Assembly (NCBI RefSeq): GCF_001971705.1
Contig: NZ_CP019327.1
Location: forward strand, 310,001 to 374,000
Length of the DNA: 64,000 nucleotides
Direction: 5' to 3'
Source of the DNA: Natronorubrum daqingense
GTDB lineage: Archaea; Halobacteriota; Halobacteria; Halobacteriales; Natrialbaceae
The position numbers and the translations under genes were made by a program. This document shows, one piece after another, positions 52,914 through 58,150 of this stretch (position 1 is the first letter of the stretch; every line of letters starts with the position of its first letter). The notes under the pieces were generated by a model. It did no database searches and was not told where the DNA came from. It saw nothing but the letters and a program-made list of their open reading frames with translations.

Positions 52914-52986
52914 GGGCGTGTGGCCTAGCGGAGAGGGCAGGAGGTTCCTAACCTTCTGATCGTGGGTTCGAATCCCGCCACGCCCG
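52914..52986 (+). tRNA. tRNA-Arg (anticodon CCT)
   Basis: Acceptor arms GGGCGTG and CACGCCC pair completely. The D arm (GCCTAGCGGAGAGGGC), anticodon stem GGAGG/CCTTC with loop TTCCTAA (anticodon CCT, decoding AGG), five-base variable loop and T arm (GTGGGTTCGAATCCCGC) are all regular; the 3' CCA is not encoded and the discriminator is G. It is the source of the 3'-end copies that follow. Confidence 0.95.
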
Positions 52987-53019
52987 TCCGCGACGAACGA
53001 ACGTGAGAAGCGGACGGGC
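52982..53019 (+). terminator. Hairpin directly after the tRNA
   Basis: GCCCGTCCGC pairs with GCGGACGGGC across an 18-base loop; the left arm starts inside the 3' acceptor strand of the tRNA. It could compete with acceptor-stem formation, mark the 3' end for processing, or end transcription. Confidence 0.5.
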
Positions 53020-53035
53020 ACGGATTCGAACCCTA

Positions 53036-53075
53036 CCAGTCGCGCACAGCGAACGAAGTGAGCGAGCACGTCTGG
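53036..53075 (+). repeat. Imperfect hairpin around GAACGAAGTGAGC
   Basis: CCAG at 53036-53039 pairs with CTGG at 53072-53075, and inside it further partial pairs (CG, GC) flank AGCGAACGAAGTGAGCGAGC. It shares the loop motif with the three main hairpins of the array but lacks an intact tRNA tail before it. Confidence 0.4.
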
Positions 53076-53202
53076 TTTCGGTTCGAATCCCGCCACGTCC
53101 GTTCACCTGCGAACGACAGTGAGCAATGTGAACGACACTGCGGGGTTCGAATCAGGGAGTGAAGCATCGCGAAACGACCGTGGTTCGAATCCCGCCACGC
53201 CC

Positions 53203-53237
53203 GTCATCTACTGCGAGCATAGGCGAGCAGTGATGAC
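53203..53237 (+). repeat. Hairpin after the third tRNA tail
   Basis: GTCATC pairs with GATGAC and an inner ACTGC with GCAGT, enclosing GAGCATAGGCGA. The stem starts at the discriminator base of the tRNA-tail copy, just as in the first unit. Confidence 0.55.
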
Positions 53238-53316
53238 CGCACTGCGGGATTCTTGAACGACGGAACGAGCGAGCAACAGCGAACGAAGGCTGGTAATTTG
53301 AATCCCGCCACGCCCG

Positions 53317-53857
53317 CCGCGGTCGCGAGCCGACGTTCGTCTCTCTTGCCCGTACACCTCACAACCCACGGGAACGGGAAGTCGATCCCTCGAGTACCCC
53401 TACTCGAGCAACGAGCCAACGTCTTCCGAGCGGTCGGTGGCACGATTGGCTAGATACCCCGCTCGTGGTGAATGGGGCTCCTCCACACTGGACCGCCACG
53501 CGTTGGTGTGATTGGTACCACTGGGAACGTTCAGCAATGTGTACGTTGACAAAACGCCGTCTGTGAACGGTTACGAGTTCGTGTTCTCGCTACCGCGTCG
53601 CTCTCACTCGTCGTGACCCAGCGACGGTTGCAGTCGTTGTGACGGAGTCTATCCAAGCAGATCGATAGATATTATGACACGTCCGTAGAGAGTTGGTCGT
53701 GACCACATATCGTCCCATCCCTGTTATCTCTCACAGAACGCTACGATTACGGACCTACAGAAATCGAGAATACAGAAACTCGGGGCTGTCTGTGTAATTA
53801 TCAGATATGGTACTGTGTGGATGAATTTTTTGAAGGGTGAGAGTTTGGATGAAGCTA
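53317..53857. other. 541-base region before the pilus operon
   Basis: No gene is supported. ATTTTTTGAA at 53824-53833 is the T-rich box about 30 bases before the pilB-like ATG at 53858. The segment 53640-53800 is AT-richer than average, with AGATATTATGACACG and AGATATGGTACT. It may hold regulatory sites of the pilus genes or decayed sequence. Confidence 0.4.
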
Positions 53858-56800
53858 ATGGCTATTGACGACGCCGACCAATCGGATTCCGGGGACTTTT
53901 CTGAGAGAGAGGAATCCGATCTCGAGTCGGGTGCTGATGCAGACGCGAATCCCAGTGCTCGCGTCGGCGAGTACACGTGGGAGGATTTCATGATCGAATA
54001 CGGGTACGGGACTGAGGTATCGACACTGTACCCCGACGAACCCACGGGTGACGAGCAACTCGGACTCGACACCGACGAATCGCAGACGGTTCCGACCGGC
54101 GCGGACTGGGATCGCGTCGACTTCGACCCCACAGCGTATCTCGGAATCCACCCGGACGACCTCCGCTCGGAAACGATGCCCGTCGCCGGCGACAACGCCG
54201 ACGTCCTCCAGGACATTTTTCTCGAGTACGTCGACCCGGAGACGACGCCGGTCACCAAAGACGTCTGGACGTGGGAACACTACAAGTGGGAGTACTACTA
54301 CGACGACGATGGTTCCCGCCCGCGCGACGGCGACGGCGAGATCGTCCGCCACGATAAAGAGGAGGCACTCGGCTTCGATCCCGAGACACTCGAGCAGCGG
54401 TTGTTCGCTGGTGACGAGGCCGCGATGGAACTCGACGAACTCGTCGAGGAACGGACGGTCAACATCCAAGACGAAATCGACGAGGACGACTTCTTCTCGA
54501 GCGTCGACGGGCATACGACCGTTTCGAATCGCTACGACCTCGAGAAGGCCGTCCCGATGGACAAGAAGACCCACTTCCGGGAGGTCGAACGTTACTGGGT
54601 CAACAAGCCCTACGCTTACGTCGTCATCTTCCACTCCGAGAAGGAAAACGAGAAGAAATACTACATGGTCGAGCCGTATCTGAACGAGATCGAGTTGGAA
54701 CTACAGGAGTTCCTCTCGGGTAAACTCAGAACGGCAATCAAGTACTCTGACGACGGGATCAAAGAGAAAGCGACCGAAGACGGTCGCCGAGTCGTCATCG
54801 AAGACGAGGCGCGTCGCCTGTTGAAACGATACGACCTCTTCGAGAAGACGGGAGGTGGCACACAACAGAGCATTCTCGAGACGTTCCAGAGTTTGGGGGA
54901 CCTACAGAATATCCAGAATCTCCAGAACATCCTCGACGACGAGTCCAACGAGTCCGACGAGTCCGACGAATCCGACGAATCCGACGGGGACGGTTCTGCC
55001 GAGGTCGGCACGGACGAATCGGCGTCCGAAGGGGAACTGGAGCCGATGAGCGACCCCGAAACGACGCAACTCGAGGGCATCGAGGTTCGCCCCGAACCGG
55101 CGATTCTCGCTGACGATCCGGATACGCTCAACGAGTATCAAGTCGAGAAGTTACTCTATCAACTCAAGCGAAACTTCATCGGATACGAGCGTATCGACGG
55201 CATCAAACACGACATCAACGTGGAGGACGTTTCGTGTGACGGGTACAACTCCCCCGTCTTCGTTTACCACTCCGAGTACGAACAGATCATTTCGAACATC
55301 TACCACGGCGACGACGAACTCGACGATTTCGTCGTCAAACTCGCTCAACGCTCGGGCAAAGGGATCAGTAAACGGCTGCCACAGGTCGACGCAACACTGC
55401 CCGACGGCTCTCGTGCCCAGCTCACGCTCGGCCAAGAAGTGTCGGATCACGGGACGAATTACACGATCCGTCAGTTCAAGGACGTGCCGTTCACCCCGAT
55501 CGACTTGATCAACTGGAACACCTTCTCGCTCGACGAGATGGCGTTCCTCTGGCTCGCCATCGAGAACCACAAGAGTCTGATCTTCGCCGGTGGTACGGCA
55601 TCGGGGAAGACGACCTCCCTGAACGCCGTCTCGCTGTTCATTCCGAGCAGCGCGAAAATCGTCTCCATCGAGGACACCCGCGAGGTCGAACTGCCACAGC
55701 GAAACTGGATCGCGAGCGTTACGCGTCCCTCGTTCTCCGACGACGAACAGGGTGACGTCGACGAGTTCGACTTGCTGGAAGCCGCGCTCCGACAGCGTCC
55801 CGATTACATCGTGATGGGTGAGATCCGTGGTGAGGAAGGACGGACGCTCTTCCAGGTCATGTCGACGGGCCACACCACCTACACCACGTTCCACGCGGAC
55901 TCCGTCGACGAGGTCCTGAAGCGTTTCACGACGGACCCGATCAACGTCTCGAAGACGATGTTCACCGCGTTGGATCTGGTTTCGATTCAGACCCAGACGC
56001 GGGTACAGGGTCGGAAAGTTCGCCGGAACAAGTCGCTGACGGAGATCAACCACTACGAGGCCGAACACGACGAGATCAACGTTCAGGACGTCTACCAGTG
56101 GCAAGCGGAGACGGACGAGTACCTCAAGATGGGTGACTCGAACACCCTCGACGAGATCCAGTTCGATCGCGGGTGGAGCAACGAGAAACTCCAGGAAGAA
56201 CTGTTCAAGCGCGAAGTTATCCTCGCCTATCTCATCAAAAACGGTCTCAACACGTACGCGGAGGTGGCGGCGACCGCACAGGCGTTCATCAACGACCCCG
56301 ATACGATTCTCACGCTCATCGCAAACGGGCAACTCGAGGAGAGTCTCACCGACCTGCGAGAGATGGAGAGCGTCCTGATCGACGTCGACCAGGAGAAAGA
56401 AGAACTCGTTCCGCGACCGGATGCGAGCAGCGAAACGTACAACCTCTCGATGGACATCCTCGAGCGCGCCGAAGAATCGCTGTTCGAAGAGTATCGCGGG
56501 AAAGTACCGAGCGGTCTCGCGAGTGCACTCGGCAACATCGAGGACGAAGAACCAATCGATGTCGAACAGGGCGATGGTGACGCCTTCGACTTCGAGGAGA
56601 GCGCCGACGGTGCCGTCGACGAAAACGAGTGGGAACTCGACGACGGCTCGAGCGCGTTCGGTGTCGAGACAGCGGATGGCGAACGCGAACCGGCCTGGCT
56701 CAGCGATGACACCGGGTTCGAAATCGGCGCTTCCGGCGAAGTCGATACGACAGCCGACGGGTCTGCTTCCTCGAGTCGGGAGGCCCCGAGCGATTCCAAC

Positions 56801-58150
56801 CAACGACAGAGTACAGCCCAAACGACAGCCGATTCACCGTCCGCAGGAACTGCTTCGGAGCAACCGTCGGCGGAGGCTGGTGAGTCGGCGTCGACCCCAA
56901 CGGTGTCGGATCAAAACGAATCGGCGACGATATTCCCGTCGGACGATCCCGACGAAGACGATCTCGGCGGCCTGTTCGACGATATGGGAGAGACGATCGA
57001 TCAACTCGAGTCGACCGATTCACCGCCCGAATCGAACTCGCTCGAGGCCGAACCGTCGGCGGACGATCTCGACACCGAGTCACTGTTTCCCGACGGGGAT
57101 TTCGAGTCGATTTTCGATCCCGACGGGAACGACTCAGCGATGAGCACCGACGCAGGCAGTTCAACGACTGACGTCGAGACGGCTATTTCGAACGCGCAAT
57201 CTGAAGACTCGGCGGGCGTCGAGTCACCATCGACGACGAGTGGACCGTCGGCAACTGAATCGGACGAATCGGTGAGCGTTGACTCCCCAACGACCGAGGC
57301 CGACGAGTCCGATTTAGGCGAGGCGGCGAATGCCGATCCACCAACGATCGAACTGGACGACTCGGAGACAGACGAAACGGAACGTGCGGACCCTCCAACG
57401 ATCGAATTAGGTGATTCGGGGACGGACGAGACCGAGAGTGTGGAACCACCGACGATCGAACTAGGCGACGCGTCGGATGATGACCAAGACGAGGCGACGG
57501 AAAACGACGAGGATGACCCGTCGTCTTCGCCTGAACCGACGGCTGGCGGTCCCACAGAGGCCGCGTCGTCAGGCGAGACCAGTGGCGACGAAGCGATACC
57601 CGCTGCACCGCCAGACTCGAGTGAAGAAGACGATGTTGGGGATGGAGAATCGACGACTGCTCTCGAAGATAGGGACGCTGACGATAACACGGCCAGCCAG
57701 TCAGAGGGGAACGTCGACGAAGCGGACACTGACGAGGGTTCACCGCTCGAGGAGACAGCCAACGCCGAAGCTGTCGATACTGGGGGGAACGAGTCGGCGG
57801 CGAAGACGGAGGATACGCACCGTCTCGCTGGCTCAGGTGACGAGTCGGCGGCAACTATCGCGACGGACGAAGACACCGCTGAATCCGAGTCGCTCTTCGA
57901 AGACGAAACTGACTCGATCTTCTCCGAGACCGACGAGACGGCAGACGACGACGGTTCACTCTTCGACTCGACCGATCAGGTGCAGACGGACGATTCGATT
58001 TTCTCTCACGATAAGACGGTCGACGATGACGAGACGGCCGACGACAATGAGTCGGCTGTTGATGACGACACGCCCGACCACGAGACGACTGACGACCGGA
58101 CGACTGACGGCGAATCAACGCCAGACGACAGCGAGGAGACGGACTCATGA
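53858..58150 (+). CDS. Type IV pilus/secretion ATPase PilB-like with long acidic tail
   Basis: 1430 residues. The ATPase core spans about residues 440-780: Walker A GGTASGKTT (Gly578-Thr586, Lys584), SIEDTREVELPQ, YIVMGEIRGEEGR (Walker B with Glu655), STGHTTYTTFHADS. It powers assembly of pili. The N-terminal 300 residues have two similar motifs, YTWEDFMIEYGY and WTWEHYKWEYYY, and an Asp/Ser/Glu short repeat (SDESDESDESD, about residue 366). The C-terminal 500 residues are disordered, acidic, and contain PPTIELDDS-type repeats three times. The start ATG at 53858 is favoured by promoter distance; ATG 53849 is in frame. Stop and next start overlap as ATGA. Confidence 0.88.
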   Translation: MAIDDADQSDSGDFSEREESDLESGADADANPSARVGEYTWEDFMIEYGYGTEVSTLYPDEPTGDEQLGLDTDESQTVPTGADWDRVDFDPTAYLGIHPDDLRSETMPVAGDNADVLQDIFLEYVDPETTPVTKDVWTWEHYKWEYYYDDDGSRPRDGDGEIVRHDKEEALGFDPETLEQRLFAGDEAAMELDELVEERTVNIQDEIDEDDFFSSVDGHTTVSNRYDLEKAVPMDKKTHFREVERYWVNKPYAYVVIFHSEKENEKKYYMVEPYLNEIELELQEFLSGKLRTAIKYSDDGIKEKATEDGRRVVIEDEARRLLKRYDLFEKTGGGTQQSILETFQSLGDLQNIQNLQNILDDESNESDESDESDESDGDGSAEVGTDESASEGELEPMSDPETTQLEGIEVRPEPAILADDPDTLNEYQVEKLLYQLKRNFIGYERIDGIKHDINVEDVSCDGYNSPVFVYHSEYEQIISNIYHGDDELDDFVVKLAQRSGKGISKRLPQVDATLPDGSRAQLTLGQEVSDHGTNYTIRQFKDVPFTPIDLINWNTFSLDEMAFLWLAIENHKSLIFAGGTASGKTTSLNAVSLFIPSSAKIVSIEDTREVELPQRNWIASVTRPSFSDDEQGDVDEFDLLEAALRQRPDYIVMGEIRGEEGRTLFQVMSTGHTTYTTFHADSVDEVLKRFTTDPINVSKTMFTALDLVSIQTQTRVQGRKVRRNKSLTEINHYEAEHDEINVQDVYQWQAETDEYLKMGDSNTLDEIQFDRGWSNEKLQEELFKREVILAYLIKNGLNTYAEVAATAQAFINDPDTILTLIANGQLEESLTDLREMESVLIDVDQEKEELVPRPDASSETYNLSMDILERAEESLFEEYRGKVPSGLASALGNIEDEEPIDVEQGDGDAFDFEESADGAVDENEWELDDGSSAFGVETADGEREPAWLSDDTGFEIGASGEVDTTADGSASSSREAPSDSNQRQSTAQTTADSPSAGTASEQPSAEAGESASTPTVSDQNESATIFPSDDPDEDDLGGLFDDMGETIDQLESTDSPPESNSLEAEPSADDLDTESLFPDGDFESIFDPDGNDSAMSTDAGSSTTDVETAISNAQSEDSAGVESPSTTSGPSATESDESVSVDSPTTEADESDLGEAANADPPTIELDDSETDETERADPPTIELGDSGTDETESVEPPTIELGDASDDDQDEATENDEDDPSSSPEPTAGGPTEAASSGETSGDEAIPAAPPDSSEEDDVGDGESTTALEDRDADDNTASQSEGNVDEADTDEGSPLEETANAEAVDTGGNESAAKTEDTHRLAGSGDESAATIATDEDTAESESLFEDETDSIFSETDETADDDGSLFDSTDQVQTDDSIFSHDKTVDDDETADDNESAVDDDTPDHETTDDRTTDGESTPDDSEETDS

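Follow-up and report, generated by a model that had tools for sequence, protein, structure and literature searches.

Tandem copies of tRNA 3' ends with paired hairpins downstream of tRNA genes in Halobacteria

Units of the tRNA-Arg(CCT) array

Why should an intact tRNA gene be followed by three more copies of its own 3' end? The question is raised by the single tRNA gene in the window, that is, the whole stretch of 64,000 nucleotides of Natronorubrum daqingense DNA analysed here, where tRNA-Arg(CCT) occupies positions 52914-52986 (ARAGORN; Rfam tRNA model, 62 bits) on the forward strand, as do all the features of its array. The repeated tail corresponds to nucleotides 54-73 of the tRNA (52967-52986), and its further copies lie at 53082-53101 with one mismatch, at 53184-53203 in perfect form, and at 53297-53316 with a degraded T-loop (TTTGAATCC), the copy starts being 115, 102 and 113 bases apart. 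The intact gene with three additional 3' ends, as claimed in the first-pass annotation, is confirmed, and so is its claim that a hairpin with arms unrelated in sequence directly follows each of the first three tails: the first hairpin of unit 1 (52983-53018, arms CCCGTCCGC and GCGGACGGG) has an orthologue in N. texcoconense that is 0.92 identical, and those of units 2 and 3 lie at 53100-53134 (CGTTCAC and GTGAACG) and 53203-53237 (GTCATC and GATGAC). Folding gave z values of -5.3, -4.3 and -4.8 for the three as RNA, and of -2.9 to -4.4 as DNA. The loop core GAACGA..GTGAG, which had been ascribed to all of them, holds for the first hairpins of units 1 and 2 and is replaced by GAGCAT..GCGAG in unit 3.

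The earlier description of the unit was right for the tail and this hairpin 1, but it overlooked the second half, which in unit 1 covers 53022-53081 and consists of an inverted copy of the tRNA T-arm (53022-53032, GGATTCGAACC) and a hairpin 2 (53033-53081) of the family CCTACCAGTCGCGC..GCGAGCACGTCTGG, a family also found at tRNA-Asp of the same genome (0.86). Unit 2 has its inverted T-arm at 53142-53151 (GGGGTTCGAA) and its hairpin 2 at 53152-53183, of the family TCAGGGAG..CGACCGTGG that recurs at many tRNA genes, while in unit 3 the inverted T-arm (53244-53257, GCGGGATTCTTGAA) is decayed and the hairpin 2 region (53258-53296) folds weakly (z -1.4 as DNA and -1.6 as RNA with the arms included). 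The plan between successive tails is constant, with hairpin 1 starting at the tail, then the inverted T-arm of the tRNA concerned, then hairpin 2 reaching up to the next tail. These are not chance matches to the T-arm, since the window contains two matches to the signature of T-arm, inverted T-arm and T-arm, whereas 100 shuffles yielded none. In an Rfam scan of the window, nothing beyond the tRNA itself reaches the gathering score.

Spread, anatomy and turnover in Halobacteria

The tRNA-Arg array is one instance of a class-wide feature of Halobacteria. In this genome, which belongs to the Natrialbaceae, 28 of the 43 tRNA genes carry at least one downstream copy of their own 3' 21-22 nucleotides and 15 have no array; upstream copies are limited to a tandem tRNA-Asp pair. 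This tandem duplication (G000:C1:2500151-2501146) has an array of its own after each tRNA copy, with units near-identical between the two arrays. Used as a query against its own genome, the array matched tRNA-Asp, Val, Gln, Ser and His loci, and the strict signature was found at 14 genome sites, compared with none for a reversed control pattern. Copies accompany 28 tRNA genes in the congener G116 and 26 in G033, a member of another family, both numbers being approximate as a few tRNAs were counted twice. Across the class, the signature is present in 184 of 194 genomes, representing 62 of 65 genera, and the control pattern in none, while in the phylum sample outside Halobacteria about one of 236 genomes has one match, which is below the reversed control on those genomes. 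The core motif CGARC..GYGAGCG also occurs outside the arrays, with 345 instances genome-wide against 191 in the reversed control.

For the anatomy, 98 tRNA loci with a total of 138 units were analysed. Successive tails are separated by a median of 92 bp (5-95% range 75-137 bp), the median lengths being 38 for hairpin 1, 14 for the inverted copy and 41 for hairpin 2. The direct repeat, nucleotides 54-73, starts sharply at the G53/T54 boundary: upstream of it, identity with the tRNA is seen in 107/138 units at position -1, where G is common anyway, and in 32/138 at position -2. It ends with the discriminator base, nucleotide 73, and T comes next in 115/138. The inverted copy ends at T54 too (coverage 0.92 there and 0.35 at G53), and its coverage declines in the direction of the acceptor end. 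Moreover, it is specific to the tRNA it accompanies, with a mean score of 10.55 for its own tRNA against 8.27 +/- 0.21 when the tails are permuted (maximum 9.16 of 5000). Pairing between the inverted copy and the following tail copy was considered as a selected structure and rejected, because the inverted copy tracks the tail of the tRNA (41 v 8); tail copies drift without compensation in the inverted copy.

Some tail copies have an extra C or T exactly between nucleotides 57 and 58 (TTCA-Y-AATC), as observed at tRNA-Lys, Arg-TCT, Thr-CGT, Phe, Ser-TGA and Val-GAC in G000 (this genome), G116 and G033. This extra pyrimidine is confined to tRNAs with A57 (13/83, against 0/24 for G57). Apparent deletions of nucleotide 57 were rejected as true indels, as they represent a second class of units starting at TCCC. 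In this class the tail copy starts at the 3' strand of the T-stem (GCTCA-CTCCC...) and not at T54; examples are located downstream of tRNA-Arg (L079, L083, L120), at this genome's own tRNA-Ala-CGC and tRNA-Arg-GCG, and at L364.

Compared with shuffles, the units fold with a mean z of -4.3, and the tRNA-sense strand folds better than the other in 34 of 44 units (p 4e-4). Tandem GA/GA internal loops are conserved on the sense strand, with 55 of them in 43 units. G.U pairs make up 4.3% on this strand and 8.9% on the opposite one, so that selection on an RNA helix looks unlikely. The compensating stem changes noticed from the window itself were borne out by comparison of species: in the main helix at the orthologous tRNA-Arg locus, both partners of 8 out of 14 pairs have changed among the 10 species compared. 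For this hairpin-1 family in the 10 species, 17 doubly changed cells were counted against 4.8 +/- 1.6 after shuffling (0/500), and 93% of the cells are paired; a second hairpin family shows weaker covariation, with 3 doubly changed cells (17/500 shuffles). Intermediate U.G states hardly occur in the variable helix of that first family, and the stems may be kept by selection or by copying from arm to arm.

The hairpins turn over fast. When this genome is compared with G116, clear orthology of a first hairpin at a given tRNA is confined to a few cases (Met 0.97, His 0.95, Arg-CCT 0.92); for most others the best match scores close to background or comes from a different tRNA. Similarity of hairpin 1 still follows the tRNA (0.634 v 0.527, permutation sd 0.018), whereas that of hairpin 2 hardly does (0.598 v 0.561, sd 0.022). 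Within genomes, 17 pairs of different tRNA loci have hairpin 2 in common (at least 0.85) but differ in hairpin 1, a single pair shares hairpin 1 with different hairpin 2, and no pair shares both. For example, hairpin 2 is 98% identical between tRNA-Ile and tRNA-Phe, and 100% between tRNA-Arg-CCT and Val-CAC of G116. The arrays also have a polarity: among those with at least two units, divergence is greater in the farthest tail than in the nearest in 25 arrays, smaller in 3 and the same in 18 (p 7.5e-5). The number of units varies between close species, the extra unit being mostly on the tRNA side, and some interspecies indels span from inverted copy to inverted copy, not from tail to tail. Exact tandem duplications of units are found at tRNA-Lys-TTT. 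In the second units of tRNA-His (L408) and tRNA-Lys-CTT (L381) of G116, extra hairpins are nested in the apex of hairpin 1 or 2 relative to this genome.

Candidate origins of the units

The tyrosine-recombinase domain has 8 matches in the genome, 7 of them above the cut-off, and the only integrase found beside an array lies at tRNA-Thr(CGT). There a ~28-kb element with a tyrosine recombinase and a 15-bp core is integrated (G000:C1:1918998-1946927; L317 13901-14018; L021), and the tRNA-Thr(CGT) tail (core TCCCTCCACCGGCTT) together with a normal array lies 28 kb away, adjoining the recombinase, with no array beside the tRNA itself. Since the array is adjacent to tRNA-Thr in G116 and 28 kb off here, the element integrated at the tRNA-Thr end and displaced an older array. 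On the tRNA side the element does not end in a hairpin 1, and the units are therefore not its att arms. The earlier suggestion to look for integrases near other copies did yield one, but it belongs to a separate element; between the repeats there are no integrase or cargo genes of their own, the other integrases lie elsewhere in the genome, and integrase neighbourhoods were rejected as a source of the units.

BLAST of the array returned no match in phage records and two in plasmids, each at a plasmid-borne tRNA gene. Viral-contig matches to a loose pattern or to hairpin 2 were discarded as seemingly chance or as a phage region without the architecture, and an exact hairpin-2 search of viral contigs found none. 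On plasmid NZ_CP119561.1 of Haloarcula halophila, a cluster of 23 tRNA genes at ~236-244 kb comes with a B-family DNA polymerase, Orc1/Cdc6 and a TROVE (Ro60-like) protein; a tRNA-Cys-like gene on this plasmid is split by a hairpin-2 element ahead of the T-arm.

Our tentative preference, which we consider quite possible and would not yet call probable, is that the units arose as tiny hairpin cassettes without genes were inserted one after another, in a site-specific manner, at the T-loop of tRNA genes. In archaea tRNA 3' ends are the usual attB, and integration targeted to them keeps the tRNA gene whole (PMC8371274). The tRNA-Arg array would then be a stack of three non-coding cassettes of ~100-115 bp, each inserted between G53 and T54, the 5' edge of the T-loop, and running in the order tail, hairpin 1, inverted tail, hairpin 2. 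The newcomer would supply its own copy of the last 20 nucleotides, leaving the tRNA intact, and the former 3' end, displaced downstream, would become a tail copy. Hairpin 2, lying between two inverted copies of the T-loop, would additionally be swapped between tRNA loci. Both insertion and swapping may be site-specific recombination at G|TTCRAAY, with a trans-acting tyrosine recombinase as the candidate enzyme and a folded single strand as the putative substrate. Recombination at the T-loop is suggested by the common G53|T54 boundary of direct and inverted copies, the young tRNA-proximal end and the exchange of hairpin 2. Insertion of cassettes in particular is suggested by the copies being solely downstream with the nearest tails least diverged (25 v 3), the independent movement of hairpin 2, the fast turnover between congeners, the copy-number differences mostly on the tRNA side, the inverted copy matched to its own tRNA, the folding bias of the sense strand and the conserved tandem GA mismatches. 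Several points tell against cassettes: a double-stranded circle of 100 bp is hard to make, and recombination of a single strand is an assumption; a tRNA-specific inverted copy is unusual for an integrase site and would require a further step; the polarity could also stem from gene conversion fading with distance; and some indels join inverted copies instead of tails.

Among the alternatives, a somewhat unlikely one does without any enzyme. In replication or repair, a switch of template at the tRNA 3' end would produce the succession of tail, inverted tail and tail, the arms would be kept complementary by copying one from the other, and unequal exchange and gene conversion between polyploid chromosomes would multiply and shuffle the hairpins of such a satellite. 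The tRNA-specific inverted copy is the fact it explains best, as local switching yields it for free; the main helix, where pairs have changed on both sides and U.G intermediates hardly occur, suits arm-to-arm copying, and exact duplications (tRNA-Lys-TTT) and nested hairpins do exist. However, a G53/T54 boundary fixed for direct and inverted copies at many tRNAs, and the recurrence of hairpin-2 families, with their conserved and non-complementary features, across unrelated tRNAs and genera, are what it explains worst, and the signature is practically confined to one class. An origin by reverse transcription of tRNA or pre-tRNA 3' ends is hardly credible. It would account for copies starting at nucleotide 54 and for an extra pyrimidine at 57/58 solely in A57 tRNAs, A57 being m1I57 in H. 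volcanii (PMC2584109), but the reverse transcriptase domain PF00078 was found in 1/97 Halobacteria genomes and not in this one, the copies have no CCA end, and the inserted base is common to orthologous loci, so that the independent events are fewer than the counts.

The remaining two accounts go back to the first-pass annotation. We think it improbable that the array is a 3' trailer or a putative processed RNA (a decoy for RNase Z or the CCA enzyme, a terminator or a regulator) with hairpins under RNA selection. Strong covariation, good RNA folding, the better folding of the tRNA-sense strand and the presence in nearly all Halobacteria would fit such an RNA; yet 15 of the 43 tRNA genes go without it, the hairpins turn over within a genus, G.U pairs are depleted on the sense strand and not enriched, the inverted copy matches the tRNA and not the drifting tail copy expected as its partner, one array stands 28 kb from its own tRNA behind an integrated element, and the window matches no described RNA family except tRNA. 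More doubtful still is that the tail copies are attR sites left by ordinary viruses or plasmids that had integrated and later lost their genes. The usual archaeal attB, the repeat of nucleotides 54-73, the lack of upstream copies and the polarity all agree with repeated integration at an attachment site, and partial tRNAs are reported to adjoin full copies in Haloferax gibbonsii (PMC7921747). But the inserts are gene-free, narrow in length and always hairpin, inverted tail and hairpin; the real element at tRNA-Thr(CGT) has a core of 15 bp, carries no such hairpin at its tRNA side and was inserted upstream of an existing array; and phage records gave no match. A multiplying REP-like element, also proposed earlier, came near the mark, except that each unit is tied to the tail of its own tRNA.

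If cassettes are indeed inserted, a rapidly changing element has gone unnoticed at the most constrained end of about two thirds of the tRNA genes in a well-studied archaeal class. Such an element would offer a natural model for how tRNA genes became targets of integration and would serve to type strains, and it might reveal a new chemistry by which a recombinase acts on hairpins in molar salt. A rather unlikely extension is a class-wide haloarchaeal system in which the tRNA T-loop would be a universal docking site and folded single-stranded hairpins the cassettes, integron-like, independent of IntI and rewriting tRNA 3' ends. If template switching is at work instead, it is a striking mutational process making inverted copies at tRNA genes. 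Under either reading, annotated 'tRNA remnants' would need to be reinterpreted.

Comparison with known systems

Integrons recombine at a core box G|TTRRRY with the inverted partner RYYYAAC, and the newest unit of a cassette array lies at the platform end. By analogy, the tRNA arrays, which are not integrons, may work like an integron cassette array, or like a pile-up of tRNA-targeted islands reduced to docking sites. As in integrons and CALINs, including archaeal integrons (PMC9668308), growth takes place at a fixed platform end, each unit terminates in an imperfect hairpin whose ends are conserved and whose middle varies, the boundary falls within a G|TT box and one strand folds better; that the newest unit is at the platform is suggested here by tail divergence growing away from the tRNA (25:3), an indirect measure. 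Unlike in integrons, the box is GTTCRAAY, with C where GTTRRRY needs R; the units are gene-free and at 75-137 bp too short for a gene, the platform is a tRNA gene, and there is a direct repeat of 20 nucleotides. No IntI was found in the genome, the best match to the IntI integrase model (TIGR02249) scoring 34.6 bits against a cut-off of 265, and halobacteria are not mentioned in PMC9668308.

Elements targeted to tRNA genes and their remnants, such as islands and CIME-like elements, share with the arrays the 3' target, the rebuilt tRNA, the displaced 3' fragment downstream and the stacking, and a direct repeat of the tRNA 3' part (here nucleotides 54-73) flanks the insert; the present units differ in being ~100 bp long, in lacking integrase and cargo, in their uniform succession of hairpin, inverted tail and hairpin, and in occurring at most tRNA genes. 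The SMRs (~110 bp) and PATEs of Haloquadratum (PMC3119063) are likewise small, non-coding, palindromic and haloarchaeal, with no transposase of their own, but those target IS605-type palindromes or scatter genome-wide, whereas the arrays lie only behind tRNA genes and copy the tail of their own tRNA in both orientations.

No earlier description of the arrays was found in the literature searched, which left subscription papers mostly outside. The nearest is a sentence on Haloferax gibbonsii LR2-5 in the available part of PMC7921747, according to which several of 11 partial tRNAs adjoin a full copy. These are probably the same objects seen as annotation items; that part of the report gives no structure, hairpins, inverted copy, generality or mechanism. 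The arrays may accordingly be a variant of tRNA-targeted small insertion elements that is not described in the literature searched, and an earlier description is possible.

Downstream of the array in the window, positions 53837-58150 hold an open reading frame of 1437 amino acids that resembles a secretion or pilus ATPase (GGTASGKTT) and has a very long acidic C-terminal tail of low complexity.
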